In this document: one piece after another, positions 2,892 through 45,430 of the stretch | Numbering within the stretch: position 1 is the first letter of the stretch | Layout: the number at the start of each line of letters is the position of its first letter | NCBI GenBank assembly: GCA_020523885.1 | Contig: JAJAPY010000007.1 | Span: forward strand, 62,001-126,000 | Source: Candidatus Liberimonas magnetica | GTDB taxonomy: Bacteria; Elusimicrobiota; Endomicrobiia; Endomicrobiales; JAFGIL01 | DNA: 64,000 nucleotides | Reading direction: 5' to 3' | Notes under the pieces: generated by a model | Databases searched by the model: none | The model's input: the letters and a program-made list of their open reading frames with translations, nothing else | Told to the model about the DNA's origin: nothing | Program-made: the position numbers and the translations under genes

Positions 2892-3368
2892 ATGAAAAAT
2901 CTAGTGGTTTATTATTCTTACACCGGTAAAACTGAAATTGTCGCCAAGGCAATGGCGTCAGAACTAAATGCAGAATTACTTAAAATTGACGATGTAGAAA
3001 GGCCTTCAAAGTTAAAGGCATATTTTTCAGGAGCTTTTGCGGCCCTTAAAGGAAAAAGCTGGCCGATAAACCCATTAACTGCCGATATCTCGTCTTTTGA
3101 CCGCATATTTGTAGGGTCCCCTGTATGGTGCTGGAAAGCGGCTCCAGAGATAAACTCTTTTTTTGACCAGGCAAACCTCCCGGGTAAATCAGTTGTCGTG
3201 TTCGTTACAATGGGAGGGAGCAGCCCTAAAGAAGCGATAAGAACACTGAGCGCTAAAGCTGGAGCAAAGGGCGCAAAAGTGGTATCTTCCTTCTCCATAA
3301 AAACCGGCTGCATGACTAACGAGCAGATAGCGGCAGAGGCAAAAGAAATAGCTGCAAAATATAGATAA
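2892..3368 (+). CDS. Flavodoxin family protein (cytoplasmic)
   Basis: A 158-residue protein beginning with a beta strand (LVVYYSYTGKTE). Residues 9-14 (SYTGKT) form the FMN-phosphate loop of flavodoxins. The remaining features (VGSPVWCWKAAPEINSF, VVVFVTMGGS) match the flavodoxin-like fold of the short-chain 'flavodoxin_4' type, which uses bound FMN in electron transfer. There is no signal peptide, unlike the paralogue at 11804. Codons for residues 6-50 (2907-3040) are almost identical in DNA to 11909-12042 in that paralogue, while the flanks differ. Stand-alone gene with its own extended -10 promoter; the redox partner is unknown. Confidence 0.85.
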   Translation: MKNLVVYYSYTGKTEIVAKAMASELNAELLKIDDVERPSKLKAYFSGAFAALKGKSWPINPLTADISSFDRIFVGSPVWCWKAAPEINSFFDQANLPGKSVVVFVTMGGSSPKEAIRTLSAKAGAKGAKVVSSFSIKTGCMTNEQIAAEAKEIAAKYR

Positions 3369-3407: not shown

Positions 3408-4148
3408 ATGAAAAAATCGTGCTTGAGTTTAATGTTATTGTTTGTTTTTGTTCCTCTTAAGGCAGAACGGCAGCAAAAAATTCCTTTTAATGTTGGTGAA
3501 AAGTTGAAATATGAAGTTGGCTGGGAGTTTGTAAAAGCAGGGTATGCTACTTTAGAGATACCCGGTTTTGATAATTTAAAAGGCAATAAATGTTACCATA
3601 TTACCGCAAAAGTTGAGACAGCTTCCATGTTTAACAATGTTTTTAAGGTCAGTGACGTGTATGAATCCTGGATAGATTGTAATAAGCTATTTTCCTCAAA
3701 ATTCCTTACAAATATAAGTGAAGGAAATTATCTAAGAACTGAAACGCTTGTGTTTGACCAGAAGAACCACATTTATAAAATCCTTGAGTCAAAAAAAACA
3801 GGGAAAGTCCCGGCATCTGTGCAGGATGTTATCTCTGCGTTATACAGCATAAGGAACAAGGATTTAGGCGTCGGGAAATCATATCAGCTTGATGCCCATA
3901 TAGGAGACACTACCTGGCCTTTAGCCGTAAGGGTTTTGTATAAAGAAAAAATTACGGTCCCTGCTGGAGACTTTGACTGTTTTGTGGTTATGCCCAGGCT
4001 TCGCTCACAGAAGGCGGTGAGCCCGAATGTTCAGGGCACTCTTCTTGTATGGCTTACGGCAGATACAAACAAAATACCCGTAAAAGTCAGCTGTAAAATA
4101 CCTCTGGGCTCTATAACGGCGGATTTAGTGGAGATGAAACAACAGTGA
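3408..4148 (+). CDS. DUF3108 family exported protein
   Basis: 246 residues. The N-terminus (MKKSCLSLMLLFVFVPLKA) is a signal peptide, predicted to be cut near residue 19. The following segment, PFNVGEKLKYEVGWEFVKAG, is the hallmark opening of DUF3108, a beta-rich periplasmic family. The C-terminal half continues with strands such as VPAGDFDCFVV and VWLTADTNKIPVKV, also typical. Length agrees with the family. The start is supported by an upstream AAGGAAGG. Family members are thought to be periplasmic, but no biochemical function is established. It lies 39 bp after the flavodoxin gene and may share its transcript. Confidence 0.8.
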   Translation: MKKSCLSLMLLFVFVPLKAERQQKIPFNVGEKLKYEVGWEFVKAGYATLEIPGFDNLKGNKCYHITAKVETASMFNNVFKVSDVYESWIDCNKLFSSKFLTNISEGNYLRTETLVFDQKNHIYKILESKKTGKVPASVQDVISALYSIRNKDLGVGKSYQLDAHIGDTTWPLAVRVLYKEKITVPAGDFDCFVVMPRLRSQKAVSPNVQGTLLVWLTADTNKIPVKVSCKIPLGSITADLVEMKQQ

Positions 4149-4419: not shown

Positions 4420-7400
4420 ATGAAAAAAGCAATAACACTTATAACATTATTCTGTTTCATCCTGTCAGGTGTAGCGGACCAGGCTTTGTACGGGATAGTT
4501 ACCGGGGTGCGCGATGAGAAGAAAGTAAACGAAGCCCTTGGCAAGATAGACGGTTTTATACTGCCGAAGAAGTACGGGCGTATAACCGGCGGTAACTACA
4601 GCGGCGGCGGTGCCCTGGTAGTCTGGATACAGGACCTGCACTGCCATCCTGAAGTACAGAGGAATATAAACGAAATAATACGGTTTTTCGACACAAAGTA
4701 CAATATGACGAAGCTGTTGATAGAAGGAGCGCCCCAGGGCAGGGCAGGCACAGAGCTTTTGGGCACTATACCGGACGAAAAACTGAAGCAGAAGACCATA
4801 GATACTCTACTGAGCAACGGGTTGTTAGGCGGTGCAGAGTACTACAGCGTAAAAGAAAAAAAGGATACATTGTACGGCCTTGAGGACTGGAGCGTATATA
4901 CCGAAAATCTGCACAGGATACAGGGCCTTTTGCGTCATAAAGAAGAAAACCGGAAGGTAGCGGACGAATTTAACCTGTGCCTTAAAGCAATAAGCGGCAG
5001 GTATGGAACAAAGAGGCTCAAGAAGCTTAATAAGTCCCTGGCCAAGATCAGTGAGAACGCAAACAGCCCCGATAAACTGTATGCGGTGTTTGAAAACCTG
5101 GAAGCTTTAACAGGCGAAAGCTTGTTGCAGTATCCTAACCTACAGCGGTACGGGAAAGTGCTTGAGGCAGGACGGCGTCTGCGCTATAAAAAGATAGCAA
5201 AAGAGCAGGCACAATATTTAGGTGAACTGCGGCAGGTGCTGTCTTTCGGCGTGTACCGGCAGCTGATGGACATGCTGAATGATACGTCCCGGGGTGCGGA
5301 CACATATTATTTTGGACTGGGGGAGATAAGCAGACAATATACACCGAAGATGAGCACCCGCTATCCGCACCTCAGTGCTTTTATCGAGTATATAAAGCAG
5401 AGATCTGCGATAAATCCGATCGAGGTCGTACGCGAGCAGAATGTTTTTATAAAAAAGGCCGGTGACCGCTGTGTGAACACGCTGGGTGACCGGGAACTGT
5501 TGTTCCTTGAACGTATGGGTGAGCTGCTTGGCAAGATGGCCGGGCTTGAGTTGAGTGCAGAAGAGTTGAGCGTATTTGAAAAAGACATTGGCCGGTTTAC
5601 CGCACTCCTGCCGAAATATTTCAGCCCGCGGGAACGCTTGGGGATAGAGGCTCTGGCAAAGAAAGACGAGTTGAGCAGGTACTACGAGGTAAACAGGCAT
5701 AGGAATAAGATATTCGTCCAGCATATATTAGAGGGTTTCAGCGGCGGTGCAAGTATACAGGCGGGAGTTCCAGGCATGGCAGGGAGTTATCAGGAAACTG
5801 CCGCGCGGCTTAAGAGTTTTAAAGAAGTAGAGGTTGTCGTGGTAGGAGGGTTCCATGAAGGGATGGCCGCGGCATTGAAGGAAAAGGGGATATCCTATCT
5901 GGTAGTTACGCCGAACGTGACCTCTTCGTATAACAGGGAAGTCTATGAGAACGTTTTGGCCAACAGCCCCGCACCTGCGAGCCTGCCGGGTGCAGCATTT
6001 GCGCCGCCTGCTATGGCGGGGCTGATAGAAAAAAATGATCTGGAGAGGTTTTATTCTACAGTTGCCTTAGGGGCAGCAGAGATAGAATTGGAGTTGCCGG
6101 ATAAAAGCAGCCGGGAACGCATAGCAATAATGGGTGAGTGGCTTAAAAAGATACAGGGCGAACTTGCCAAAAAAGGGATTAACCTATCTTTGCCTCAGGT
6201 CAGCATAGAAAGATCAGATACAGGGTTGACGGTCCAAATACAGCATGAAGGCAAGGTCCTTTCGTATCATGCATCTAAAAAAGAAGATACTGTTGTCGTT
6301 GACCGGATTGTCGAAGTAAAAACTGCCGCAGGTACAGCTACGGGGCCAGAAGAAAAAACCGGCCCGAAGCTTTCCTCGATTCTTGACCCGTTGGCTCAGC
6401 AATGGTTCAAAGACCGGCCTGTTGCTTATAAAAGGTTCACAGCAGCAGCATCAGTTGCAGAAGAAGGAATATTCCGTTTATCCCTGGGCCTGGCTATACA
6501 GCACGGGCTCATCCACGGCCCCTTCGGCATAGGGATTGCGGTGGCGCTAAGCATAATTATATTTTCTGCCGCACATGTCATTGTTTCCTGGCTTGCCTCA
6601 AAGGATAAGCCGTACACGTTCAGCGATGCTAAAAGGGATTTTTTAAACCATGCCTTTTCTTCCTTTGTTTTATCTGTAGTACCATACCTGGGCGTCTATT
6701 TCCTTTTACCTAGCATATTAATAACCACATTTTTTATTGCTCCTTCTACGGTATTTTTTATAGCTCCTTTTGCGGCATTTGTTTTAACTTCCCTTATTCA
6801 TGCGGTATATGATCTAACTCTTACGCATCTGAATTCAGAAAACAAATCTGAGGAGAAGGTAAAACAGCATCAAAATTACCGCCGTTTCATCGAAGTGGTG
6901 CTGATCGCAGCTGTGGTAAGCGAAACTATTATTGCTTTAAGCCTGTTCGGCGTCCCCCCACAAGTTATAGCATGGTATAAGTTCATTCAGGGCACATATT
7001 TCATAGCTTTTGCCGGGATGAAGATCCCGCTTATAAATATCGCTTTGGGCCAGGTTATTACGTTAGCTGTAGAGCCTTTAGTGATGTCCAAATTCCAGGA
7101 TAAAACCCAGTCCTTAGACAAAGCAGAAAATAGCAAGACTAAAATCCCGTTGTCCCAGCTGATAATAACCCTTTGTGTTAATCTTCTTTGGACCACTTCT
7201 ACTTTGGCTGTTACCCAGTCCGCGCTCATCATATTTCCTCATTCTGTTTTAGCCAGCTATTATTATATGTCTTTCCTGGGTGTAGGCTTGCTTTTTGCAG
7301 TGATGTTTTTAAGGGTAGGTCTTGAGAAAGGCGGAACTTTTATGCGCTATTTCTTTACCGATACGTCGATAATAGCCAGTTCTTTCGGGCTGGCCGCGGT

Positions 7401-10400
7401 ATTTTTCTCATCAATTCCAAGGTCTGTAAATTACTTTTTTTCACATCTTCCGTCTTTGCGGGAATCAGCAATAGCGATAGTCCTGTCTGCGCTTACAGCA
7501 GTATATAATGTACTTTTGACTATGGCACCGTTTTTATACCTCCCGGCGGCCGCAAAGGAGAAAAACCTTAACAATTACAGAAATGTACTGTTAGTCGGGG
7601 AACTGAATTACGTGAAAATGCCGTTCACCGACCTGGTGCTGCTGTTGGTCCTGAGCGCTGCCCAGGGAGACGTAAAGGTTATCTTTCAGCAGTTAATAGG
7701 AATAGCTTATTATATACTTTACGCATATTATTCTTATCTTACACGGACAAGCGGGACCCCGCCTCTTTCCAATTTCCTTTATTCTCTGCTTGTCAAAAGG
7801 TATAAAGCCAATGAAGAAGATTTGAACCTTGATAAATTGGCCGATGCCAGGGACAAGGGTGTCCTTGAAGAGGTAAAGGAAATACGGCAAGGCACTTCTC
7901 TAAAGGCAGACCTTGGCGGCACATGGGATATGGGGTTTGTACTGCCCGCGCAATTAGTCCAGGCAGCACCTGCGTTTAAAGATAGAGCCTTAAACAATAT
8001 GCCGGTCTTAAAAACAATAGTGCCTTATCTGGCACGGGTGTTACGTATGCATAGGGAACTGGAAGGGGCCGGGTCCGAGGGTACTAAGACCTGGCTTCAT
8101 ACTCAGGTCCCGGGAACAGCTTACGCCGCGCTTATTGAACATAAAATCATACCTGACCCGTTCAAAGGTATGCATGAAAAAGATGTTCAGTGGGTGGGAG
8201 AAACAGATTTTACGTTCGTAAAACGTTTTACCGTATCGCCGTCTTTGAGGAAAAAAGACAAAGTCAGCCTGACCTTCCACGGACTTGACACCTGCGCTAC
8301 TATATGGATAAACGGCATGAGGCTTCCTAAACCAGGTTCTGCGCCGGATTCTTTGGAAACGTACAGCGCCGACAACATGTTCACAGACTGGACTTATGAT
8401 GTTAAAGACTACCTCGATGACGGGGAGAACGTCATAGTTGTGGAATTTGATGCTCCTATGCGTGCCGCTCGGGAACGCGAGCAGAGATGGGGAACTCTTG
8501 GAGCGGTGTTTTCACGCCTGAGGATCTATCTGCGCAAAGAGCAGGCTTCGTTCGGCTGGGACTGGGGCCCGTCTATGCCTGATTCCGGTGTATGGCGTTC
8601 GGTTGAACTGGCAGGGTATGATACCGCCGAGGTGTCTGACAGCTCTGCCGAAGTCACTTTTGAAGGTGATGATCTGGCCCATCCGTTAGTAACCGCACAG
8701 GTCGAGCTTAATAAGTATGCTCAAGAGCCTTTCGATGTGAAAGTTGTGCTGAAGGGCCCGGACGGGACTGAAGTTGAAACTAAAACCATAAAGTATGAAG
8801 ATATAGTGTTTGATAAAGCGGGCAAAGCGCAACTGTCTCCTTTGTTCGCTGTCGAAAACCCTCAGTTGTGGTGGCCTAACGGTTATGGGGAACACCCGTT
8901 GTACCAGATAGACGTAAATATCTTTACCCGCAAAAAAAGCACGGGAGAACGTGTTTTAAGTTCTTCCAAGGCCCAGAAGTTCGGAATACGAAAGATCGAG
9001 CTTATGGAGGAAGAGCCAGGCCCGGACGGCAAAATGCAGAAATGTTTCAGGATAAAAGTTAACGGCATACCTATATTTGCGAAAGGTACGGCCTGGATAC
9101 CTTCCGACTCGGTCAACACTCATATGAATGAAGAGCGGTACAGTGATTTGCTTACCAAGGCGGCAGATTCCCATTATAATATGATGAGGGTCTGGGGCGG
9201 CGGGTATTATGAAGACGAGGCGTTCTATCGTGTATGCGACGAAAAAGGCCTTTTAGTTTGGCAGGATTTCATGTTCGCGTGCGCGGACTATCCGGAGAGC
9301 AAGGAGTTCACAAATTCGGTAAAGCGTGAAGTAGAACTCATTGTAAAGAAGCTGAGGAGCCATCCATGTATAGCTCTTTGGTGCGGGAACAACGAGAACC
9401 AGTGGCAGCAGCAGCAGGGATTGTTCAGCAGTTCCACCCATCTATTCGGTATTGATATATACGAAAAAATGATCCCCGAAATACTGGGCAGGCTCGACCC
9501 GGGACGAAAGCTTTTGTACCGCAAGAGCAGCCCCTGGGGCGGTAAAAACCCCAACAGCTTTAAGGAAGGAGACGCCCATATATGGGGTATATGGGATTAT
9601 TCGTTTTATCTCGGGGTAGATACACTTTTCGGATCTGAAGCAGGCTGGCAGGCACCGCCGGACCCAAGGACTATTTCCTCATATTACAAGGTCCCTTTAG
9701 GCAAAGAGCGCAATCCGTTCGATGAGATGGCGAAGTTCCACAATAAGAAAGAGCCCCTCGGTCCTGAAACGATATGGCATTTCATGCTGAAACATTTTCC
9801 AAAACCCGGTACGTATAACGACTATGTCTTATACTCTCAGCTCAACCAGGGGCTTGCACTTGATACCTTGGCAAAACATCTGAGGCGCATCAATTCGGGC
9901 GGTTGCCTTGTATGGCAGTTCAACGACATCTGGCCGTGCGATTCCTGGTCGGTCGTAGATTATTTCCACCGTGCAAAGCCGGCATACTATATGCTCAAAC
10001 GGGCTTTTGCTCCGGTACTTATCAGTATTGGCCGCGAGAAAAGTACGGAAGGCAGTGTTGTCATAAATAATGACAGGCCAGTACCCGTGAAGGGAAAAGC
10101 TGTTATTACCTTAAGCGATTTTGAAGGGAATATAATAAAAAGAGAGGAAAGGGATATCACCGTAAAAATGGGTTCGTCTGAAACAGTAGAAATCCCGTCT
10201 GCTATGCTCAATCCTTCTGACAGGCAGTCCCAGTTCCTGTCGGTAGAGTTTTACGATGATAAAAATGAACTCTTAAGCCAGGATATCCAGTTCTTCAGAG
10301 AGTTTAAAGATATAGATCTTCCCGCTAGTGACGCTGCAATAAATAAAGAGGATATCCAGCCCGTTGACACACGGCCTGAGACTGAACGCCGACTGCCCGC

Positions 10401-11514
10401 GGAAACCTTTGACACTTTTAGGGTGCCGGTGAGCGCAGAGCGGTTTGCTCCCTGGGCATACCTTGATATTGAAGGCGACATTGAAATAGAGTGCGACGAC
10501 AACTACTTCTGTATCCTTCCGGGCCAGATGCGGACTATAACGGTTAAGACAAAACAAAAGATGACCCCGGAAGAGTTCGCTAAAAGACTCGTGCTGCGGA
10601 TTACACCGGATAAAAATGCAAAAAAAGATGAACCGTCTTTAAAGCGTGCGCCGGCGATCATCCGGGACAGAGAAGTGGTCCGCATCCGCACAGGTGAAAT
10701 AACCGAGAAAAAAGCCGGAGAGCTCCACTCCATGGCGTGGCAGGGAGCACGGGTCGTAGATATCGGGATGATGGATGAAGAAACTAAAGAGCGCCTTTCG
10801 GATAATGGTGTGCCGAAGCTGGGTACTACCATTGTACCTATAGTTTTTGAAAATGGCTATATGATGTATGCATTGGTTGATGTGTACGGAGAAGAGATAG
10901 AACATTATAAAAGCGGAGGCCGGGTCGTACAACTTTACATGGAGCTATCCGAAGCTCAGGAAAAAGAGGTCCTGGACCGCGGTTTAAATATAGAAGAACT
11001 GAGAAAGCAGGTATCAGAACACGGGGCGTTCAAGGTAATAGCTGAACTGAAAGAAGGAACCGTCCTTGAACCCCGAAACAACAAAGAGATAAGAAAGCTG
11101 CTCGGCAGAAAGGAGTTCAAACCCTGCGCTGTTGAACTCGACACCAGAAAAGGCCGTACTGCAGGCGGGTCTACTTATGAATCGTTAGCCCGGGAAGCGC
11201 AGGAACGCGACACTTTCTTAGAAGGTGCAGGCTGGCTGGTGGATATTGTAGATAGAGACGTAGGCCCTGACGGCTGGGGCGGGGAACAGGATGCAGCTGA
11301 GTACCTCTCGGGTATTGCAGGAGACTCAGAAAAGAACATGAGCCTCCGCGGTAAAGGGCTGCTGCGGCAGTTATTAAATAAACTGCAACCGCCCGTTGCT
11401 GCGGGCCAGCCGGGCGACATATTCCCTGTCTTAGACAGTTCGGATATAAAAGAGACTATAGTTGACGAGGATTCTCTGCACCGCGCAACAATGGCAACGC
11501 TCTCTGCTTCATAA
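4420..11514 (+). CDS. Giant multidomain protein: TraB/ChaN-like + CPBP intramembrane protease + GH2 beta-mannosidase
   Basis: A 2364-residue protein with at least four modules. Residues 1-20: signal-like hydrophobic segment. About 60-500: a domain with D72-L-H74-C-H76, E102-G103 and GGFH at 476-479, resembling the TraB/TIKI/ChaN superfamily. About 665-1110: many membrane segments; the first part carries all three CPBP (CAAX/Rce1-type) protease motifs: EEGIFR (681-686), FSAAH (715-719) and HAVYD (794-798). About 1165-1965: a complete GH2 beta-mannosidase with GWDWGP (from 1379), acid/base E1659 in CGNNEN and nucleophile E1740 in FGSEAG. The last roughly 250 residues are unrecognised. The frame runs uninterrupted for 7.1 kb. 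Seen: the motifs and the single open frame. Inferred: a membrane-anchored, self-contained glycan enzyme. Substrate and cleavage behaviour are unknown. Confidence 0.85.
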   Translation: MKKAITLITLFCFILSGVADQALYGIVTGVRDEKKVNEALGKIDGFILPKKYGRITGGNYSGGGALVVWIQDLHCHPEVQRNINEIIRFFDTKYNMTKLLIEGAPQGRAGTELLGTIPDEKLKQKTIDTLLSNGLLGGAEYYSVKEKKDTLYGLEDWSVYTENLHRIQGLLRHKEENRKVADEFNLCLKAISGRYGTKRLKKLNKSLAKISENANSPDKLYAVFENLEALTGESLLQYPNLQRYGKVLEAGRRLRYKKIAKEQAQYLGELRQVLSFGVYRQLMDMLNDTSRGADTYYFGLGEISRQYTPKMSTRYPHLSAFIEYIKQRSAINPIEVVREQNVFIKKAGDRCVNTLGDRELLFLERMGELLGKMAGLELSAEELSVFEKDIGRFTALLPKYFSPRERLGIEALAKKDELSRYYEVNRHRNKIFVQHILEGFSGGASIQAGVPGMAGSYQETAARLKSFKEVEVVVVGGFHEGMAAALKEKGISYLVVTPNVTSSYNREVYENVLANSPAPASLPGAAFAPPAMAGLIEKNDLERFYSTVALGAAEIELELPDKSSRERIAIMGEWLKKIQGELAKKGINLSLPQVSIERSDTGLTVQIQHEGKVLSYHASKKEDTVVVDRIVEVKTAAGTATGPEEKTGPKLSSILDPLAQQWFKDRPVAYKRFTAAASVAEEGIFRLSLGLAIQHGLIHGPFGIGIAVALSIIIFSAAHVIVSWLASKDKPYTFSDAKRDFLNHAFSSFVLSVVPYLGVYFLLPSILITTFFIAPSTVFFIAPFAAFVLTSLIHAVYDLTLTHLNSENKSEEKVKQHQNYRRFIEVVLIAAVVSETIIALSLFGVPPQVIAWYKFIQGTYFIAFAGMKIPLINIALGQVITLAVEPLVMSKFQDKTQSLDKAENSKTKIPLSQLIITLCVNLLWTTSTLAVTQSALIIFPHSVLASYYYMSFLGVGLLFAVMFLRVGLEKGGTFMRYFFTDTSIIASSFGLAAVFFSSIPRSVNYFFSHLPSLRESAIAIVLSALTAVYNVLLTMAPFLYLPAAAKEKNLNNYRNVLLVGELNYVKMPFTDLVLLLVLSAAQGDVKVIFQQLIGIAYYILYAYYSYLTRTSGTPPLSNFLYSLLVKRYKANEEDLNLDKLADARDKGVLEEVKEIRQGTSLKADLGGTWDMGFVLPAQLVQAAPAFKDRALNNMPVLKTIVPYLARVLRMHRELEGAGSEGTKTWLHTQVPGTAYAALIEHKIIPDPFKGMHEKDVQWVGETDFTFVKRFTVSPSLRKKDKVSLTFHGLDTCATIWINGMRLPKPGSAPDSLETYSADNMFTDWTYDVKDYLDDGENVIVVEFDAPMRAAREREQRWGTLGAVFSRLRIYLRKEQASFGWDWGPSMPDSGVWRSVELAGYDTAEVSDSSAEVTFEGDDLAHPLVTAQVELNKYAQEPFDVKVVLKGPDGTEVETKTIKYEDIVFDKAGKAQLSPLFAVENPQLWWPNGYGEHPLYQIDVNIFTRKKSTGERVLSSSKAQKFGIRKIELMEEEPGPDGKMQKCFRIKVNGIPIFAKGTAWIPSDSVNTHMNEERYSDLLTKAADSHYNMMRVWGGGYYEDEAFYRVCDEKGLLVWQDFMFACADYPESKEFTNSVKREVELIVKKLRSHPCIALWCGNNENQWQQQQGLFSSSTHLFGIDIYEKMIPEILGRLDPGRKLLYRKSSPWGGKNPNSFKEGDAHIWGIWDYSFYLGVDTLFGSEAGWQAPPDPRTISSYYKVPLGKERNPFDEMAKFHNKKEPLGPETIWHFMLKHFPKPGTYNDYVLYSQLNQGLALDTLAKHLRRINSGGCLVWQFNDIWPCDSWSVVDYFHRAKPAYYMLKRAFAPVLISIGREKSTEGSVVINNDRPVPVKGKAVITLSDFEGNIIKREERDITVKMGSSETVEIPSAMLNPSDRQSQFLSVEFYDDKNELLSQDIQFFREFKDIDLPASDAAINKEDIQPVDTRPETERRLPAETFDTFRVPVSAERFAPWAYLDIEGDIEIECDDNYFCILPGQMRTITVKTKQKMTPEEFAKRLVLRITPDKNAKKDEPSLKRAPAIIRDREVVRIRTGEITEKKAGELHSMAWQGARVVDIGMMDEETKERLSDNGVPKLGTTIVPIVFENGYMMYALVDVYGEEIEHYKSGGRVVQLYMELSEAQEKEVLDRGLNIEELRKQVSEHGAFKVIAELKEGTVLEPRNNKEIRKLLGRKEFKPCAVELDTRKGRTAGGSTYESLAREAQERDTFLEGAGWLVDIVDRDVGPDGWGGEQDAAEYLSGIAGDSEKNMSLRGKGLLRQLLNKLQPPVAAGQPGDIFPVLDSSDIKETIVDEDSLHRATMATLSAS

Positions 11515-11682: not shown

Positions 11683-11803
11683 ATGCTCATTAATAAAAAA
11701 CATAAGGAACGGCCGGTTTTTTTAAGGTTCTGCATAGTAGGGAAGATTTAACAAAACAAAAATCAGTAATTATTAGAATATGCACCCGGATAAGGAGGAT
11801 CAA

Positions 11804-12370
11804 ATGAAAAAAGTTATCAGCTTTATGTTTTTGTCCTGTATTGCAGCAACGTTTTGCATGAATTTGTCGGCTAAAGAAAAAAAAGAAGTTCCTTTGAAAG
11901 ACCTTATCGTTTATTATTCTTACACCGGTAAAACTGAAATTGTCGCCAAGGCAATGGCGTCAGAACTAAATGCGGAATTACTTAAAATTGACGATGTAGA
12001 AAGGCCTTCAAAGTTAAAGGCGTATTTTTCAGGTGCTTTTGCATCGCGTAAAGGGAAAGCCTGGCCTATAAAGCCTTTCAATACCGACCTTTCAGCTTTT
12101 AACCGCATATTTATCGGAGCTCCGATCTGGTGGAGTAAAGCAGCTCCTGAGATAAATTCTTTTATTGAACAAGCAGACCTGAGCGGGAAATCCGTTGTTG
12201 TGTTCGTTACCATGGGAAGCAGTGACCCGGAAGATGCGATAAAAGCGTTATCTGAAAAAATCAGGGCTAAAGGCGGGAACGTGCTGTCTTCCTTTTCCAT
12301 GAAAACCGGCAGAATAAAAGATGACCGGCTTTTGCAGTTGTCAAAAAAGATAGCTTCTACGTATAAATAG
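11804..12370 (+). CDS. Flavodoxin family protein with signal peptide
   Basis: 188 residues from the ATG at 11804. This start is chosen because TAAGGAGGATCAA lies directly before it and because it begins a clean signal peptide (MKKVISFMFLSCIAATFCMNLSA); a start 24 nt upstream would put charged residues in front. The mature part has the FMN loop SYTGKTE and the same fold as the protein at 2892. The exported location is unusual for a flavodoxin and suggests a periplasmic or lipoprotein-like redox role (inference). Codons covered by 11909-12042 are nearly identical in DNA to the paralogue, then identity drops, indicating recent gene conversion or partial duplication. Redox partner unknown. Confidence 0.83.
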   Translation: MKKVISFMFLSCIAATFCMNLSAKEKKEVPLKDLIVYYSYTGKTEIVAKAMASELNAELLKIDDVERPSKLKAYFSGAFASRKGKAWPIKPFNTDLSAFNRIFIGAPIWWSKAAPEINSFIEQADLSGKSVVVFVTMGSSDPEDAIKALSEKIRAKGGNVLSSFSMKTGRIKDDRLLQLSKKIASTYK

Positions 12371-12420: not shown

Positions 12421-12435
12421 AAATTGGATAATGTA

Positions 12436-12464
12436 TTGAAATTTAGTTATAAATAAACTATAAT
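12436..12464 (+). promoter_or_regulatory. Promoter of AbiE-type cassette A, predicted leaderless
   Basis: TTGAAA at 12436-12441, a 17-bp spacer and TATAAT at 12459-12464. The ATG at 12471 lies 6 nt after the -10 hexamer, so the transcript should begin at or next to the start codon. The same spacer (ATTTAGTTATAAATAAAC) is conserved base for base before cassette B at 45402, suggesting a bound operator. Confidence 0.75.
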
Positions 12465-12470
12465 TCATAT

Positions 12471-13265
12471 ATGAACACCAATACTTATTCATTATTACAG
12501 GTAAGGGAAGTTTTTCATATAGAGTTTTTACGGCTTTTCGGTAAGAAAATAAAGGCTTCGAGTTATACGCTAAAAGGAGGCGTCAACCTGCGTCTTTTTT
12601 TTAAAAGCGTGCGTTATTCAGAAGATATGGACCTGGATGTAAGCGGTATCCAGGCGCACGCGTTGAAAGACGCCGTTATGAACGTTCTTCAGACTAGTTC
12701 GTTTGTGCATTCCCTCACGACCTTCGGGATAGAAAACATTATCCCACCTGATATTGCTAAAGCAAAACAGACGCAAACGACACAGAGGTTTAAAATTCAT
12801 CTTATTACCTCTCGCGGCGAAGATCTTTTTACCAAAATAGAGTTTTCCCGCAGGGGCACATCTGGCAACGCCGTAGTACAGCCGGCGGACTCTGAGGTTT
12901 TAAGAGCATATAAGCTTTCTCCCTTAATAGTGCCCCATTACGACACGAATTCTGCTATACTGCAAAAAATAGGCGCTCTTGCTAACAGGACGGTCATTCA
13001 GGCAAGAGACATATTCGATCTGCATGTTTTAAGTTCACAGTTTGTTCCGGGTTCTATTAAGAGTGGAGAAGTAGACAAACAGGCCGCTAAAAAGGCATAT
13101 GATAATTTGTTTACAATTTCTTTTGGACAGTTTAAGGATACGGTGGCCGGTTATTTGTCGTATGAGGACCAGGGCGTATATAGCAACCCTTCGGTGTGGG
13201 ACGAGATAAAGCTTAAAACAGCAAAATTCATAGAGGAAGACATATGCAAAATTTCTCTGTCCTGA
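12471..13265 (+). CDS. AbiEii-type nucleotidyltransferase toxin, cassette A
   Basis: 264 residues of the AbiEii/AbiGii toxin family. The nucleotidyltransferase core is visible: GG at 36-37 (LKGGVNLRL), then RYSEDMDLD at 48-56, with acidic residues D52, D54 and D56 for metal binding. AbiEii proteins are GTP-dependent nucleotidyltransferases that arrest growth or cause abortive infection when not balanced by their antitoxin. The partner gene overlaps it by 22 bp downstream. Order is toxin first, the reverse of the textbook abiEi-abiEii order. A second copy, about 85-90 percent identical by eye, is at 45431. The start is supported by the promoter, which leaves no room for another. Confidence 0.88.
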   Translation: MNTNTYSLLQVREVFHIEFLRLFGKKIKASSYTLKGGVNLRLFFKSVRYSEDMDLDVSGIQAHALKDAVMNVLQTSSFVHSLTTFGIENIIPPDIAKAKQTQTTQRFKIHLITSRGEDLFTKIEFSRRGTSGNAVVQPADSEVLRAYKLSPLIVPHYDTNSAILQKIGALANRTVIQARDIFDLHVLSSQFVPGSIKSGEVDKQAAKKAYDNLFTISFGQFKDTVAGYLSYEDQGVYSNPSVWDEIKLKTAKFIEEDICKISLS

Positions 13266-13867
13266 AGTACATAAAGGATCTTAAGCGGCCGGTTTTTACC
13301 ACATCAGAAATATCTAAACTTTCCGGCAAATCCCTGTCTTCTGTAACCCAGGCATTGAACTACCTCGTGCGCCAAAGGGCGATAACCAAGATATACAGGG
13401 GCATATGGTCTGAGATAACTGAAAAGCCTGTGAGCACGTATCTTGTCATCCCATTTTTGTTTCATACTCAAAGGGCTTATGTTTCATTTACCACGGCACT
13501 TCATCTTTATGGTATGATAGAGCAAATACCTCAGGTTATAACCCTTGCATCCACAACTCATTCTAAAATAATACGTACCGGTATAGGGACGTTTTCTGTA
13601 CATCAATTGGCGCCGTATTTCTTTGATGGTTTTGAATGGTATAAAGGAACCGGCGGTTTTCTGATTGCAACTCCGGAAAAGGCTTTGGTTGACTGCCTTT
13701 ATATAGCTACCAGGAAAAAAAATCAGTTTCAGTATTTTCCTGAACTTAATTTCCCGAAGTCATTCAATTTTAAAATTGCGGAAAAATGGGCTGATAAAAT
13801 TCAAGATGGCAAAATCAAAAGCCTTGTATTAGAGCGGTTAAAGCAGTTAAAGAAACAAAACGGCTAA
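13244..13867 (+). CDS. AbiEi-type antitoxin/regulator, cassette A
   Basis: 207 residues. The N-terminal 60 residues form a winged helix (PVFTTSEISKLSGKSLSSVTQALNYLVRQ). The rest matches the AbiEi antitoxin C-terminal fold, with VSFTTALHLYGMIEQIP and FLIATPEKALVDCLY typical. Known antitoxins of this type counter the nucleotidyltransferase and repress their own promoter. It overlaps the toxin gene by 22 bp, so translation is coupled. It is nearly the same as the protein at 46204. Self-repression at the conserved promoter before 12471 is inferred. Confidence 0.85.
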   Translation: MQNFSVLKYIKDLKRPVFTTSEISKLSGKSLSSVTQALNYLVRQRAITKIYRGIWSEITEKPVSTYLVIPFLFHTQRAYVSFTTALHLYGMIEQIPQVITLASTTHSKIIRTGIGTFSVHQLAPYFFDGFEWYKGTGGFLIATPEKALVDCLYIATRKKNQFQYFPELNFPKSFNFKIAEKWADKIQDGKIKSLVLERLKQLKKQNG

Positions 13868-14000: not shown

Positions 14001-15164
14001 ATGCAAAACATTCATCGTATTCTAAATATAAAACTTCCCAAAGGGCAATCAGCGTTTTTATGGGGGGCAAGAAAAACCGGAAAAACAACGTATTTAAGAA
14101 GCGCTTTTCCTAAGAGTATTGTCTATGATTTTCTTAAAACAGATTTAATGATAGAGTTTTCTAAACATCCTCACAGGCTGCGCGAAGAACTGTTTGCTAA
14201 AAGCGCTGAAGAACTAAAAAGCCCGGTTATTCTTGATGAAGTGCAAAAAGTGCCGAATATCCTTGATGAGGTGCATTGGCTAATTGAAAATAAGAAAGTT
14301 TCATTTATACTCTGCGGCTCAAGCGCAAGAAAGCTTAAACGCAATCATGCAAATATGCTTGGCGGCAGGGCTTGGCGTTACGAACTGTTCCCTTTGGTAA
14401 GTAAGGAGATTAAAGATATTAATCTCCTGCGTTCGCTTAACCATGGGTTAATACCCTCGCATTATCTTCAACAGGAAGAAGAAGCAAGCAAATCGTTAAA
14501 AGCGTATGTTCAAGATTACTTAAAGCAGGAAGTTTTCGATGAAGGGTTGACCCGCAATATCCCCGCCTTTTCAAGGTTTTTTGACGCTATGGCTTTTTCG
14601 CATGGAGAGCTGACAAATTATTTAAACATTGCGCGTGATTGCGCCATAGATGCAAAAACAGTAAAAGAGTATTATCAGATTTTGGTGGATACTCTTTTAG
14701 GAAGAATAATTGAGCCTTTTTCGAAAAGACAAAGCAGGCAGGTAATTACCAAAGCTTCTAAATTTTATCTTTTTGATGTTGGCGCAGCAGGGTCTTTAAT
14801 AAACCGGAAGCTTGTTGATGAAAGAGGTGAAGCATTTGGCAGGGCCTTTGAGCATTTAATATTTATGGAGTTAAATGCGTATAGTTCGTATTCTGACAAA
14901 AATTACAAGATAAATTTTTGGAGGACAAAATCCGGATTGGAAGTTGATTTTATACTCGCGGAAGGCGAAGTGGCTATCGAAGTAAAAGGCGCTAAAACAA
15001 TTAATAGTTCAGATTTAAGGCCATTAAATGCTTTTATTGAAGAGGTGAAGCCCAAAAAGGCAATTTTAGTATGCAATGAAGGCAGAAAGAGAGTTGTTGG
15101 GCCTGTTTCTATAATGCCATGGCGGAACTTTTTAGAGAAATTGTGGACAGGAAAGATACTATAG
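14001..15164 (+). CDS. AAA-family ATPase with DUF4143 domain
   Basis: 387 residues. N-terminal P-loop WGARKTGKTT (K28) and Walker B VILDEVQKVP form an AAA_14 ATPase domain. A middle helical part and a C-terminal DUF4143 domain with a nuclease-like core follow (GLEVDFILAEGEVAIEVKG, about residues 310-330: acidic residue plus E-x-K). Such proteins are widespread, often present in several diverged copies in one genome. Their role is not established, though defence or mobile-element association is common. The next cassette codes for another member at 15506, only distantly similar. Own promoter and ribosome binding site are present. Family call secure; function open. Confidence 0.85.
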   Translation: MQNIHRILNIKLPKGQSAFLWGARKTGKTTYLRSAFPKSIVYDFLKTDLMIEFSKHPHRLREELFAKSAEELKSPVILDEVQKVPNILDEVHWLIENKKVSFILCGSSARKLKRNHANMLGGRAWRYELFPLVSKEIKDINLLRSLNHGLIPSHYLQQEEEASKSLKAYVQDYLKQEVFDEGLTRNIPAFSRFFDAMAFSHGELTNYLNIARDCAIDAKTVKEYYQILVDTLLGRIIEPFSKRQSRQVITKASKFYLFDVGAAGSLINRKLVDERGEAFGRAFEHLIFMELNAYSSYSDKNYKINFWRTKSGLEVDFILAEGEVAIEVKGAKTINSSDLRPLNAFIEEVKPKKAILVCNEGRKRVVGPVSIMPWRNFLEKLWTGKIL

Positions 15165-15174
15165 ACAAAAGATA

Positions 15175-15222
15175 AGGCAGATCCAGGAAAAAGCCAAAGA
15201 AATCGTCGCGCAGTATAAATAA
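15175..15222 (+). pseudogene. Possible flavodoxin C-terminal remnant
   Basis: The frame ending at 15222 reads RQIQEKAKEIVAQYK-stop, resembling the last residues of the flavodoxin at 2892 (QIAAEAKEIAAKYR). It has no start and lies 10 nt after the ATPase stop. The match is short, so this is tentative. Confidence 0.35.
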
Positions 15223-15470
15223 AAGCGAATAATACCGGGGGTTAGGGGTAAGAACGCCGGTCTCGAAATCATAAAAGACAAAAAACTAACTTCTGACGAA
15301 AAGTAATCCTACCGACGCTAAAACCGATAAAATCAATTTGTCCCAATTTGTAGCATTTGCCCCTATTTTGTCTATGAGATGGACACCAAATGGACACCTA
15401 AAAGCAAGTGTTTATTTCTTTTCGCTGATGAAAACGTTTTAGTAAATAATATACAAAATGGTAATATATG
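15223..15470. other. Non-coding spacer with paired TTTGTCCC/GGACACC boxes
   Basis: No gene seen. It holds AATTTGTCCCAATTTGTAGC (15335-15354) and GGACACC twice (about 15391-15408). These resemble the repeated TTTGTGACC boxes at 20681 and GGGACA boxes near 45140, all near cassette or element borders. They may be remnants of recombinase arm-type sites; that is inference. Confidence 0.4.
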
Positions 15471-15499
15471 TTGACAATCTGTATAAAAATATGTATTAT
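15471..15499 (+). promoter_or_regulatory. Promoter of the second AAA/DUF4143 gene, predicted leaderless
   Basis: TTGACA (15471-15476), 17-bp spacer, TATTAT (15494-15499). The ATG at 15506 lies 6 nt further, at the expected transcription start. An in-frame ATG at 15458 lies upstream of the promoter and cannot be used from it. Confidence 0.75.
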
Positions 15500-15505
15500 A
15501 ATCCC

Positions 15506-16669
15506 ATGATAAAACGAACGGCAGAACATACATTACGCTTGCTGACGAAAGAATTCCCTGTTGCAGTAGTCACTGGGCCGCGACAATCAGGAAAGTCAAC
15601 GTTGGTACAGTCCACGTTCCCGGGCAAGCCATATATAACTTTTGATGATATAGATATTTTGGAATCTGCCCGTACTGATCCCCGCGGTTTCCTTGAAGGG
15701 TTCCCAAAGGGTGCGATTGTTGATGAAGCCCAGAAGTTACCGGAATTATTTTCATACTTGAAGGCCCGAGTTGACCGTTCCCACAAGCCTGGCGAGTTTA
15801 TTCTTACCGGTTCCCAACAGTTTGGGCTGATGTCCCATGTCTCAGAATCCCTGGCAGGGCGTGCAGGTTTTATTCAGTTGCTTCCATTTTCTATTAAGGA
15901 ATTGGTTACGGCAAAAAAACTACCGTCTTTAGATAACCTTCTTTTCCAAGGGATGTACCCTCCTCAATACGATCGTGCAATAACTGCAAGGCACTGGCAT
16001 GCAGCGTATGTTACCACCTATCTTGAACGGGATGTTCGCTCCATGCTCCATATACGCGAGCTAAGCATATTCCAGCGGTTTCTGCGGATGTGTGCGGCAA
16101 GGGCTGGCCAACTGCTCAATATTTCAGCCCTCGCTAACGATTGTGGTATTTCCACACCCACAGCACGGAACTGGATATCGGTACTTGAAGCCAGCTACAT
16201 CGTTTTCCTGCTTCAGCCGCATTTTGTCAATTTTGGTAAACGTCTTGTAAAATCGTCAAAGCTTTATTTTTATGATCCTGGCCTCGTGGCTTGGCTTCTT
16301 AATATTCAGGATACGGCGCATCTTTCCATCCATCCCAGCAGAGGTGCCCTTTTTGAGAATTTAGTGATATCTGAACTCCTCAAACAGCGGTTCAATCGCG
16401 GCATGGCATCAAATCTCTACTTCTGGCGTGATAACCTGGGTGACGAAATTGATGTCTTGATAGACCATGGTGCTACACTGATTCCTGTTGAAATAAAGTC
16501 CGGGAAGACCCTAACCGATGATTATTTTAAGACCCTGAATAAATGGAAAAAGGTAACCGGCAAAGATATTGATTCATATCTTATTTACGCGGGCCATACA
16601 CCCCACAAACGAAACAATATCACTGTCCTGCCGTGGAATTCCATGCCCGATCTCGCTGTTACTCCATAA
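15506..16669 (+). CDS. AAA-family ATPase with DUF4143 domain (second copy)
   Basis: 387 residues from the ATG at 15506, chosen because a consensus promoter ends 6 nt before it and the family N-terminus (IKRTAEHTLRLLTKEFPVAVVTGPRQSGKST) starts there. P-loop GPRQSGKS (K30), Walker B GAIVDEAQKLP, sensor-like LTGSQQF. The C-terminal DUF4143 part has GDEIDVLIDHGATLIPVEIKSG, with the D and E-x-K pattern of a restriction-nuclease-like core. It belongs to the same broad family as the protein at 14001, but the two are only distantly similar, so they are separate acquisitions rather than a tandem duplication. Function is not established for the family. Confidence 0.86.
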   Translation: MIKRTAEHTLRLLTKEFPVAVVTGPRQSGKSTLVQSTFPGKPYITFDDIDILESARTDPRGFLEGFPKGAIVDEAQKLPELFSYLKARVDRSHKPGEFILTGSQQFGLMSHVSESLAGRAGFIQLLPFSIKELVTAKKLPSLDNLLFQGMYPPQYDRAITARHWHAAYVTTYLERDVRSMLHIRELSIFQRFLRMCAARAGQLLNISALANDCGISTPTARNWISVLEASYIVFLLQPHFVNFGKRLVKSSKLYFYDPGLVAWLLNIQDTAHLSIHPSRGALFENLVISELLKQRFNRGMASNLYFWRDNLGDEIDVLIDHGATLIPVEIKSGKTLTDDYFKTLNKWKKVTGKDIDSYLIYAGHTPHKRNNITVLPWNSMPDLAVTP

Positions 16670-21162: not shown

Positions 21163-23277
21163 ATGGAAAGACATAACGAAATATCAGAATTCATTTGGGG
21201 TATTAAAGAACATATCCGCGATGAATACAAAGAGAAAGATTACGAGGAAGTTATATTGCCTTTTACACTGCTAAGGCGTATTGACTGCGTGCTTGAAAAA
21301 ACTCATGAGAAGGTTGTTAAGACTTATGAAAAATATAAAGGCAAAGCAACTCCTGAAGTATTAGACCAACTGCTGAAAAAGGCATCCGGGCAAAACTTTT
21401 ATAACATCTCAGCTTTCACCCTGCTTGGCCTAACTAAAGATAAAGATAACATTGGCGAAAATTTTGATGCATATCTAAAAGGTTTCAACGAAAGCATTAA
21501 GGATATTCTGCTTAACTTTAGCGGTGGACCGGAAAAGGGGCTTTCTCCAATTTATGAAACTCTACTAAGGAAGGAACTGCTTTATATCGTTACCTTTGAA
21601 TTTACCAAACTTGATATGAGCCCGGACACAATAAGTAATCATGACATGGGAACTATATTTGAAATACTTATTCGTAAATCAAAAGAAGCATCAAATGAAA
21701 AAGCTGGCCAGTTTTATACACCCCGTGAAATCGTAAGACTAATGGTAAACCTTGTTTTTGCAAACGAAACAAGCAAACTGCAAAAAGCAGGAGCAGGTAT
21801 AAATGTTTATGACCCTTGTTGTGGAACAGGAGGTATGTTGACTACGGCAAAAGACTATTTACAGGAAAGTGTTAATCCTAAACTTACTGTATATACTTTT
21901 GGGCAGGAAATAAACGAACAAACCTACGCTATTGCCAAATCTGATATCTTAATGAAAGGCGAAAACGCTGACAACATCAAGCACGGCAATACTATTACCA
22001 AAGACAAGCTCATTGGTAAAACTTTCAACTATATGCTTACTAATCCGCCTTTTGGTGATGACTGGAAAAATATAAGAGAGTTTGTAGAAAATGAATCCGA
22101 AGAAAAAGGATTTAGCGGTCGTTTTGGTGCAGGAACACCTGATGTAAGTGATGGCTCTTTTTTATTCTTACAACACATGATAAGCAAAATGAACCCACAG
22201 GGCAGTACTATTGGTATTGTTTTTAATGGATCACCTTTGTTTAATGGCGATGCAGGCGGTGGCTGGAGCAATATTCGCGGCTGGATAATGGATGAGCCAA
22301 ATGATTTGCTGGATTGTATTGTGGCATTGCCAAAAGATCTGTTTTACGGTACTGGTATAGGTACTTATATTTGGATATTAAACAATAAAAAACCTGCAAA
22401 TAGAAAAAATAAAGTTCAATTAATAAATGCAATACATCCAAACTTCACTAAGAAAATAAAATCCCTGGGCAAGAAGCAATACGAAATAAGTGAAGATGGT
22501 ATTAGCCTGATAACCAAAATATACAAAGCTTATAAAGATCACAGTATTGAAGTAGAAGAAGACAGCAAAAAGCGTACAATTGAAATCAGTAAGATTTATG
22601 ATGTAGATGATTTTAAATATACTAAAGTAATCGTTGAACGGCCTTTGCGTTTGGCTTATGAAATAACCAATGAGAAAATTGAAGCACTAAAAAAGCACCC
22701 CAAATTTATAGAATTTGCCACAAGTAAAAAGAAAGACAAATCATCCGCAAAAGCCGATATTTCTGAAGGCAAAGCTATACAAGAAAAGATAGTCAAGGCC
22801 CTTGAAACATTTAAAGGTAAAGCAAGAGAAATGAATGATGCTAATTTCTTTTCAACTTTTGAAAAAGCTTTTGGAGCCAAGCCAAATAAAGCATTACTTA
22901 AAATGTATAGAGATTCCATTGGCGAAAAAGACGAAGAAGCAGAAGTCGTTTTTGAAGATCCCTATAATATACCTGTACAAAAAGGCAGGGTTTGCGATTG
23001 GAAAGAAAAGCCGATGCAGGATACCGACCTTCGCGATAGTGAAAGCATTAAATGGAAAGAAAATATTGATGAATATTTTGAACGGGAAGTATTACCCTTT
23101 GCCCCAGATGCCTGGATGGATAGAGAAAAAGACAAAATCGGATATGAAATCCCCTTTACTAAATTCTTTTATGAGTACAAGCCTTTGCGTGATTTGAGTT
23201 TGATTATGAAGGATATAGAAGCCCTTGAAGAGCAAACAGAAGATTTGCTTGAAGAAATTAAAGAGGTCGTTAAATGA
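21163..23277 (+). CDS. hsdM: Type I restriction-modification DNA N6-adenine methyltransferase (M subunit)
   Basis: 704 residues. N-terminal HsdM helical domain (about 1-140), then the methyltransferase core with SAM motif I DPCCGTGG (D217 onward) and catalytic motif IV NPPFGDD (N294). AGQFYTPREIVRLMV, typical of HsdM, precedes motif I. A C-terminal extension of about 250 residues ends in a coiled-coil-like tail (DLSLIMKDIEALEEQTEDLLEEIKEVV). It modifies adenine in the target chosen by HsdS and is required for the restriction complex. Ribosome binding site TAGGAG is upstream; the stop overlaps the hsdS start (ATGA). Confidence 0.95.
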   Translation: MERHNEISEFIWGIKEHIRDEYKEKDYEEVILPFTLLRRIDCVLEKTHEKVVKTYEKYKGKATPEVLDQLLKKASGQNFYNISAFTLLGLTKDKDNIGENFDAYLKGFNESIKDILLNFSGGPEKGLSPIYETLLRKELLYIVTFEFTKLDMSPDTISNHDMGTIFEILIRKSKEASNEKAGQFYTPREIVRLMVNLVFANETSKLQKAGAGINVYDPCCGTGGMLTTAKDYLQESVNPKLTVYTFGQEINEQTYAIAKSDILMKGENADNIKHGNTITKDKLIGKTFNYMLTNPPFGDDWKNIREFVENESEEKGFSGRFGAGTPDVSDGSFLFLQHMISKMNPQGSTIGIVFNGSPLFNGDAGGGWSNIRGWIMDEPNDLLDCIVALPKDLFYGTGIGTYIWILNNKKPANRKNKVQLINAIHPNFTKKIKSLGKKQYEISEDGISLITKIYKAYKDHSIEVEEDSKKRTIEISKIYDVDDFKYTKVIVERPLRLAYEITNEKIEALKKHPKFIEFATSKKKDKSSAKADISEGKAIQEKIVKALETFKGKAREMNDANFFSTFEKAFGAKPNKALLKMYRDSIGEKDEEAEVVFEDPYNIPVQKGRVCDWKEKPMQDTDLRDSESIKWKENIDEYFEREVLPFAPDAWMDREKDKIGYEIPFTKFFYEYKPLRDLSLIMKDIEALEEQTEDLLEEIKEVVK

Positions 23278-24635
23278 GACAATATCTAGCATATAAACCA
23301 AGCGGAGTGGATTGGTTGGGAAAAATTCCAATTGGTTGGGAACCTATTAAACTAAAATATATTTCTAACAGAATTACTAAAGGAACTACGCCTACAACAG
23401 TTGGTAAAGCATTTGTAGATAATGGGATTAATTTTATTAAAGTGGAATGCATATCAGAAACTGGAACTATTATTAAAGAAAATTGTGCATTTATTGATGA
23501 AGAAACTCATAATATTTTAAATAGGTCACAATTGAAAAAAGGTGATGTTATAATTGCTATCGCAGGAGCTATCGGAAGAGTTGCTATAATTGAAGATGAT
23601 ATTGTTCCTGCAAATACAAATCAAGCGGTTGGAATAATAAGTGTAAAAAAGAAAAAGTATAATTTACAGTGGGTCAAATATGTATTAAACTCCGATGCAG
23701 TAAAGCAATATTACAATATTGAAATTGTGAAAACAGCACAAGCAAACATAAGTTTAGAAAATGTTGGATTGGCAATTTTGCCTACTCCTTTGCTACCTGA
23801 ACAAAAATCTATAGTTTGTTTTCTTGATTATACAACAGGACAGATAGATACTTTTATTGCAAACCGCCAAAAGCAGATTGAATTGTTGAAAGAGCAACTG
23901 CATTTCAAAATAAACGAAGCAATTACTAAAGGTATCAATACTAAAGTACAATTCAAAGCTGCTGATATTAAATATGTCCCTGAAATACCGGAGCATTGGG
24001 ATATAAGAAAATTCAAGAGTCTTACTTCAATTCTTACCTGTGGTGTTGCGGCTACCCCAGAATATGTTGATGAAAATGAAGGTGTTGCATTCCTCTCAGC
24101 ACAAAATTGCAGACCTTTTGCAATGGACTTGTCTAAATATAGTTATATAAAACCAGCACTACACAAGCAGCTTACAAGATACAAAAAGCCACAAAAAGGT
24201 GATGTATTAGTAACCAGAGTTGGTGCGGGAATAGGACAGGCTTGTATAATTGATACGGATTTAGAATTCTCTGTTTATGTAAGTTTAACTCATATCAGAC
24301 CAAACAAGGAAATATTAAGCGAATATATAGTCTATTTTTTTAATACTGAATATTGCTATCAATTAAATCACGAAGGCACAGTTGTTGGTGGCGGGCAAGG
24401 AAACTTAAATGTAAAGAATGTTGAACGCTACCGTATACCGTTACCACCTATTGAAGAACAAAAAGAAATTATTAAATACCTTGATAAGTACAGAACAGAA
24501 ATGGATACCCTTATCTCCAAATACCAAAAGCAAATAGATTTAATGCAGGAATATAGAGCATCCTTGATCAGCCAAGCAGTAACAGGAAAAATTGATGTGA
24601 GAGATTGGCAGCCAAAAAAGAAGGAGAAACAATAA
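23274..24635 (+). CDS. hsdS: Type I restriction-modification specificity subunit
   Basis: 453 residues with the two-repeat plan of HsdS: target-recognition domain 1 (about 1-160), conserved spacer helix 1 (PLLPEQKSIVCFLDYTTGQIDT, then a long heptad-like helix), target-recognition domain 2 (about 230-390) and conserved helix 2 (PPIEEQKEIIKYLDKYRTEMDT) to the end (SLISQAVTGKIDVR). It sets the bipartite DNA target for methylation and cleavage. Start ATG overlaps the hsdM stop by 4 nt, and the stop overlaps the hsdR start by 1 nt, so all three are translated together. No second hsdS or inversion site is visible nearby. Confidence 0.95.
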   Translation: MRQYLAYKPSGVDWLGKIPIGWEPIKLKYISNRITKGTTPTTVGKAFVDNGINFIKVECISETGTIIKENCAFIDEETHNILNRSQLKKGDVIIAIAGAIGRVAIIEDDIVPANTNQAVGIISVKKKKYNLQWVKYVLNSDAVKQYYNIEIVKTAQANISLENVGLAILPTPLLPEQKSIVCFLDYTTGQIDTFIANRQKQIELLKEQLHFKINEAITKGINTKVQFKAADIKYVPEIPEHWDIRKFKSLTSILTCGVAATPEYVDENEGVAFLSAQNCRPFAMDLSKYSYIKPALHKQLTRYKKPQKGDVLVTRVGAGIGQACIIDTDLEFSVYVSLTHIRPNKEILSEYIVYFFNTEYCYQLNHEGTVVGGGQGNLNVKNVERYRIPLPPIEEQKEIIKYLDKYRTEMDTLISKYQKQIDLMQEYRASLISQAVTGKIDVRDWQPKKKEKQ

Positions 24636-27577: not shown

Positions 27578-27592
27578 GATTTTTAAATAAAT

Positions 27593-28711: not shown

Positions 28712-28713
28712 CT

Positions 28714-29874: not shown

Positions 29875-29978
29875 AAATAGTATGTTCGGGTAAGTAAACG
29901 GTGCTTGACTAATTGGACTTATTGTAGGAGTAAGAAATAAAATGATAGAGTGAAGCAAGACACGGAATAAGATCTAGT

Positions 29979-30003
29979 CAAGTTAGGCAAGCCTGATACA
30001 CGG
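29979..30003. repeat. Solo REP-like repeat
   Basis: CAAGTTAGGCAAGCCTGA (18 identical bases) followed by TACACGG matches the right terminal repeat at 17893-17917 with a 2-base insertion. No transposase is near, so this is a solitary REP or an internally deleted derivative, 12 kb from the transposase. Confidence 0.65.
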
Positions 30004-30032
30004 ATTTATATCGTGGCTCATGGAGAAATAGC

Positions 30033-45340: not shown

Positions 45341-45395
45341 ATAAATACCCCAAATGCCTCGCTAAGCACATCCTTTTCAAAAATATAACAATGTC

Positions 45396-45424
45396 TTGCA
45401 ATTTAGTTATAAATAAACTATAAT
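45396..45424 (+). promoter_or_regulatory. Promoter of AbiE-type cassette B, predicted leaderless
   Basis: TTGCAA (45396-45401), 17 bp, TATAAT (45419-45424); the ATG at 45431 follows after 6 nt. The spacer equals that of cassette A although the sequence further upstream differs. Confidence 0.75.
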
Positions 45425-45430
45425 ACATAT

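Follow-up and report, generated by a model that had tools for sequence, protein, structure and literature searches.

Our analysis of a 64,000-nucleotide (nt) stretch of contig JAJAPY010000007.1 of Candidatus Liberimonas magnetica (the window) indicates that the open reading frame (ORF) at positions 4420-11514 belongs to a set of very long frames with a common N-terminal module, which we call the leader. We consider it probable, if far from secure, that its product is an exported, membrane-spanning member of an Endomicrobiia family of giants built as "leader plus cargo". In this member the leader is followed by a putative CPBP (Rce1-like) intramembrane protease domain, a multi-spanning membrane region and a GH2 beta-mannosidase.

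The gene at 4420-11514 is real. On the forward strand a single unbroken frame of 2364 amino acids (aa) runs from the ATG at 4420 to the stop at 11514, exactly as the initial annotation had read it, and the chance of 2364 open codons at the base composition of the window is ~10^-74; a weak AGGGA-like Shine-Dalgarno sequence lies ~13 nt upstream of the ATG. Every residue on which that annotation had relied is in place (D72, H74, E102, GGFH 476-479, EEGIFR 681-686, FSAAH 715-719, HAVYD 794-798, E1659, E1740). The signal-like N-terminus that it described was recovered as well: residues 1-26 (4420-4497) resemble a signal peptide with a hydrophobic stretch at 5-23, and this start is conserved across the module family, the copies in the same genome aligning there as K..T..CF..S.V..QPLxA.

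When the protein was searched by tblastn against the organism's own genome (3.39 Mb in 29 contigs), residues 1 to ~510 turned up at the start of 17 further long frames. The 18 ORFs measure 2364-12640 aa, with the window ORF the smallest complete member, and total 122 kaa (thousand aa) or ~11% of the genome, both the total and the fraction being minima because four of the ORFs run off contig ends. In all-against-all blastp the 18 have nothing in common but the N-terminal ~510 aa; almost everywhere else a segment has 0-3 partners. The paralogous matches of the window ORF are single for each part: the CPBP region and the C-terminus pair with a 7388-aa giant, the later membrane part with a 12025-aa giant and the GH2 domain, distantly, with an 11892-aa giant. 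A tree groups the window leader with that of the 7388-aa paralogue, near RIFOXYA2 copies.

The leader also recurs across the phylum. A scan of 84,980 species gave 155 confirmed relatives, and among the best 80 of the 155 the 79 loci are all from Elusimicrobiota, the majority from Endomicrobia of termite gut, rumen and other origins; an origin of the window in Omnitrophota, which we had considered, is at odds with these relatives. Forty-four of 150 Elusimicrobiota genomes carry the leader, usually in many copies and mostly at the start of long ORFs; among the 150 matches listed, the leader-bearing frames have a median of ~3000 aa and reach 11.8 kaa, and many short frames come from assemblies that are badly fragmented. 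Outside the class, five genomes have a distant form. The leader is often missing from the small genomes of one genus of the order, and the module is absent from two genomes of that order, G023 (one contig, 1.6 Mb) and G017 (1.1 Mb). Of the 68 ORFs of 1500 aa or more in the public loci that we fetched, 60 carry the leader, a fraction biased by a sample of loci chosen by the leader; the eight leaderless ORFs comprise five cut at the 5' end, two that, as read from the sequence, start like RpoC, and one of 1551 aa.

What kind of domain is the leader? Residues ~46-520 (4555-5979) give an AlphaFold2 model with pLDDT 90.8 and pTM 0.86, consisting of a beta core (strands 53-59, 65-72, 98-108, 151-155, 469-476 and 492-498) and a large helical insertion. 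Q71, D72, H74, Q80, E102, R428 and H479 of GGFH are invariant or nearly so, and the quartet D72, H74, E102 and H479 is kept in 75 of 75 aligned relatives. The order D72-x-H74 ... E102 ... GGFH, with E102 28 residues after H74, fits the 2His/2Glu quartet of TIKI enzymes, which in VvRRSP consists of E3900, H3902, E3930 and H4030; in Bcr135 the pair H85/E113 has the same H-E spacing of 28 (PMC6254334). A profile of the leader finds the leaders of other Elusimicrobiota families at E~1e-43, and two of the distant modules score above the cut-off of 27.7 of the ChaN Pfam model PF04187 (L186 29.7, L189 28.4), a third falling below it (L192 24.3); for the window leader and the 18 own-genome modules the Pfam scan lists no ChaN match. 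Judged by its catalytic residues and these intermediate sequences, the leader appears to be TIKI/ChaN-like. Neither a Foldseek comparison of its model with viral proteins (E<=0.001) nor an hmmsearch against the PDB gave a credible match.

The initial annotation had called this domain TraB/TIKI/ChaN-like, and the last two parts of that label survive. TraB/PrgY (PF01963) has no match in the window protein at E<1, and the label was replaced because 60 genomes of the phylum yielded no TraB match above the cut-off. Erythromycin esterase (PF05139) likewise has no Pfam match over the cut-off in the phylum, and the matches of the leader to Nitro_FeMo-Co, PAH_ZNF598 and N-SET are weak, confined to single members, below cut-offs or biologically scattered, and we take them as chance. 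Two peculiarities of individual leaders may be recorded here: in L026, L036 and L037, giants of the same genome, the leader is preceded by ~180-200 additional residues that include a further hydrophobic stretch, and in L186 and L192, outside the class, the motif LSVFTQEKTPLxxLFDGEKLF follows directly after it.

In residues 640-830 (6337-6909) the CPBP motifs EExxxR, FxxxH and HxxxN/D, here EEGIFR, FSAAH and HAVYD, are all present, in order and within the membrane region. Pfam gives no CPBP match in the window protein at E<1, and since its models do not match, both the CPBP and the leader labels rest on motifs and homologues; of the profile searches by which the initial annotation proposed to check its domains, those with GH2 models succeeded and those with TraB and CPBP models did not. 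All three motifs recur in L050, L080, L121 and the 7388-aa paralogue on contig C1, and motif 1 also in the cut-off L127; E42, E43, R47, F76, H80 and H155 of the CPBP segment are invariant in six giants. Against PF02517, with a cut-off of 22.4 bits, L080 scores 25.9 and L050 24.3, the C1 paralogue remaining below at 16.6. Moreover, hhalign aligns the CPBP of the giants with stand-alone CPBP proteins at 4e-6 with the motifs in register, a control profile giving nothing. The assignment of a CPBP (Rce1-like) domain, as first proposed, is thus supported at the level of sequence. AlphaFold2 models of residues 640-1165, built from four sequences, had a pLDDT of 47.6, too low for use, and gave no useful fold match. 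The giant-type CPBP occurs in 28 of 84 genomes of the order, the listed matches lying in frames of 657-9162 aa, mostly >2000 aa; no match in these genomes falls in a typical stand-alone protease ORF. By comparison of coordinates, the leader lies 126-573 aa upstream of the CPBP in the same frame in ten giants from eight genomes.

Residues 1210-2060 (8047-10599) are, to judge from the alignments, certainly an intact beta-mannosidase, and the complete GH2 enzyme of the initial annotation stands. The Pfam GH2 domains match strongly over 1221-2060, the solved Dictyoglomus beta-mannosidase 5n6u gives a whole-domain match at E=6.8e-152, and the predicted acid/base E1659 and nucleophile E1740 align with the catalytic Glu positions of "WCGNNE" and "FxSE". 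Among the 150 Elusimicrobiota genomes only this one has a fused GH2; in the four other genomes of the phylum with a match, GH2 forms frames of 743-965 aa. The impression that the combination was undescribed thus holds for the GH2 fusion, and fails in so far as the protein is no one-off but one of 18 headed by the same module. The search for the same architecture in related genomes had a similarly divided outcome, with the leader-CPBP linkage recurring and the GH2 fusion found only here.

The other giants carry GH94, GH77, GDE, PFK, UPRTase, adenosine and cytidine deaminase, HD, HAD, GNAT, kinase, radical SAM, DnaJ, phospholipase C, PLD, TPR and HEAT domains. The GH94 cargo keeps GDWNDG, and another giant contains a peptidase M50 match that stays under the Pfam cut-off. 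In other genomes, orthologous giants show purifying selection along both leader and payload: in the pair L113/L124 the ratio of nonsynonymous to synonymous divergence (dN/dS) is 0.07-0.24 in nearly all segments along ~3500 aa, one segment being saturated. The pair L085/L095 agrees at 80% over 2300 aa and then continues into unrelated payload. These giants thus act like functional single frames whose cargo can be exchanged, and cargo has been swapped between genes and between species. In L085/L095, at residues 1500-2100, synonymous divergence falls from ~0.6 to 0.15-0.28, which suggests recombination within the gene.

How might such a protein work? The signal peptide would route the chain to Sec, and the leader, lying beyond the cytoplasmic membrane, would form a TIKI/ChaN-type domain, presumably active, with the full D/H/E/H quartet. 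The membrane block, often opening with the giant-specific CPBP domain, would anchor the chain and, to go by its motifs, may act as an intramembrane protease. The GH2 cargo, if on the predicted side, would work at the cell envelope and remove the terminal beta-mannosyl residues of manno-oligosaccharides. More generally, the leader would serve as a constant docking and processing head, with the cargo setting the job of each giant. Several observations weigh against this picture. The leader model has no Foldseek match in the PDB at E<=0.001, and hhalign of the leader with ChaN gave no match and no register; because these fold and profile-profile searches gave no match, we describe the leader as TIKI/ChaN-like without counting it as a member of the TIKI superfamily. 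Most cargo domains of other giants (PFK, UPRTase, DnaJ, kinase, radical SAM) have folds that are usually cytosolic, which fits poorly with export by Sec. Finally, the window ORF is without an ortholog, and the selection measured is that on giants of other genomes.

The alternatives differ mainly in what they ask of the domains ahead of the cargo. The chain could be a self-processing polyprotein, cut by the TIKI-like leader, the CPBP domain or both, which would free the mannosidase along with the rest of the cargo. The chain does begin with two domains of protease type whose catalytic residues are intact, the M50 match adds another peptidase-like element to the set, and the cargo domains resemble complete enzymes that once stood alone. 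However, the CPBP domain was undetected in most of the 18 own-genome paralogues and so is not their common processor, TIKI-fold proteins include non-proteases such as the Ere esterases and ChaN, and no conserved cleavage site came to light, though none was looked for; we judge this explanation unlikely. A class-wide version, in which a TIKI-type leader protease, often with CPBP, matures more than 12 giants per cell and frees captured ordinary enzymes outside the cytoplasm, is a degree more doubtful. The initial annotation had imagined a membrane-held mannan-processing machine whose own protease might release its glycosidase or N-terminal domain; its interpretation as a whole is partly supported, the release being the conjectural part. 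If, on the other hand, leader and CPBP were only anchor and scaffold, with neither proteolysis nor other activity, the protein would be a plain membrane-anchored mannosidase. Only GH2 has a proven enzyme relative, and CPBP homologues can serve as scaffolds, but catalytic residues kept in leader and CPBP across many paralogues would be unexpected in pure anchors, and this leader also stands at the head of giants in which we found no glycosidase, so that we give this explanation, too, only a small chance.

A constant exported head with swappable cargo, including kinase, deaminase, phospholipase, PLD and UPRTase folds, also recalls a surface or delivery protein with several effectors that targets a host or prey cell, in the manner of polymorphic toxins or of the giants of predatory Omnitrophota, and two accounts read giants of related phyla as predation or adhesion factors (PMC10066038, PMC12057145). 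Yet we identified neither RTX, CPD or a toxin C-terminus nor an immunity gene or a delivery signal, the Pfam scan of the window protein containing no such domain and no search having been aimed at them, and the mannosidase and the glycogen and phosphorylase enzymes look metabolic; we hold this reading to be improbable. That the frame is an artefact, an assembly chimera or an accidental read-through of adjacent genes, could be argued from a draft assembly in 29 contigs and from the stand-alone GH2 of other Elusimicrobiota. It is nevertheless very improbable, given that the genome has 17 more ORFs of this kind and its relatives well over a hundred, the purifying selection across the whole frame of orthologous giants, and a leader-to-CPBP linkage repeated in eight genomes.

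In the rest of the window protein, a linker at residues 521-639 (5980-6336) has no relatives in the all-against-all blastp. The multi-spanning membrane region, residues 831-1165 (6910-7914), is recognised by its hydrophobicity and has one paralogous region, in the 12-kaa giant on contig C12 (blastp E=5e-11). The C-terminal region, residues 2061-2364 (10600-11511), has no Pfam match, in keeping with its first description as unrecognised, and its residues 2086-2279 are related to 6619-6789 of the 7388-aa giant on contig C1. Around the gene, two flavodoxin genes (2892-3368 and 11780-12370), with 84% identity over 300 nt, enclose between them the giant ORF and a DUF3108 gene (3408-4148). An AbiEii-type toxin-antitoxin pair is duplicated in the window (12421-13867 and 45381-46827), with 85% identity over 300 nt and ORFs of 264 and 207 aa in both copies, and two adjacent AAA_14/DUF4143 ATPase genes occupy 14001-16669. 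A probable defence cluster at 21163-33839 opens with an HsdM-type N6 methylase at 21163 and includes, at 30033, a 1268-aa ORF resembling nSTAND NTPases, a weak match below the cut-off.

Few gene products are understood as little as giant bacterial proteins, which have so far been described as poorly conserved and unannotated. One enzyme-like leader that heads ~11% of one genome and recurs through the Endomicrobiia offers a common handle to search, express, solve and test, and makes the purpose of the giants directly testable. Giant Elusimicrobiota proteins as such are already known: the phylum is listed among bacteria rich in huge proteins, with functions unassigned (PMC11573180). The words "giant" and "large protein" are absent from the 2024 Endomicrobia genome paper, and in the literature outside subscription papers and preprints we found no account of a shared leader or of a giant-type CPBP. 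The leader-plus-cargo family is the larger finding.

Each part of the protein has a nearest known system. The GH2 enzymes 5n6u and BtMan2A (2je8) share with it the whole-domain match and both catalytic Glu, but they are stand-alone enzymes, whereas here GH2 is residues 1210-2060 of a membrane giant. The CPBP/Rce1-like proteases of PF02517 have the same motif order in a membrane region, from which the domain of the window differs as a giant-protein-specific lineage. For the leader the closest system is the TIKI superfamily, with ChaN/Cofac_haem_bdg as the closest Pfam family, which shares the D-x-H ... E ... GGFH quartet and the spacing of 28; the leader differs in an Asp for the first Glu, a ~300-residue helical insertion and the fused giant cargo, and has no whole-fold match in the PDB. 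MARTX toxins can carry TIKI-type domains (PMC6254334), and they and the polymorphic toxins combine a constant trafficking head with variable cargo, an analogy of layout and not of membership, since the giants, in which no RTX repeats, CPD or toxin C-terminus were identified (without an aimed search), have largely metabolic cargo. The huge proteins of Elusimicrobiota and Omnitrophota (PMC11573180; PMC10066038; West-Roberts preprint via PMC12057145) show the same very long ORFs, several per genome, with membrane helices and scattered enzyme domains, mostly unannotated. Where those accounts describe few annotated domains and poor conservation, a conserved, catalytic-looking leader here unites the giants of a whole class.
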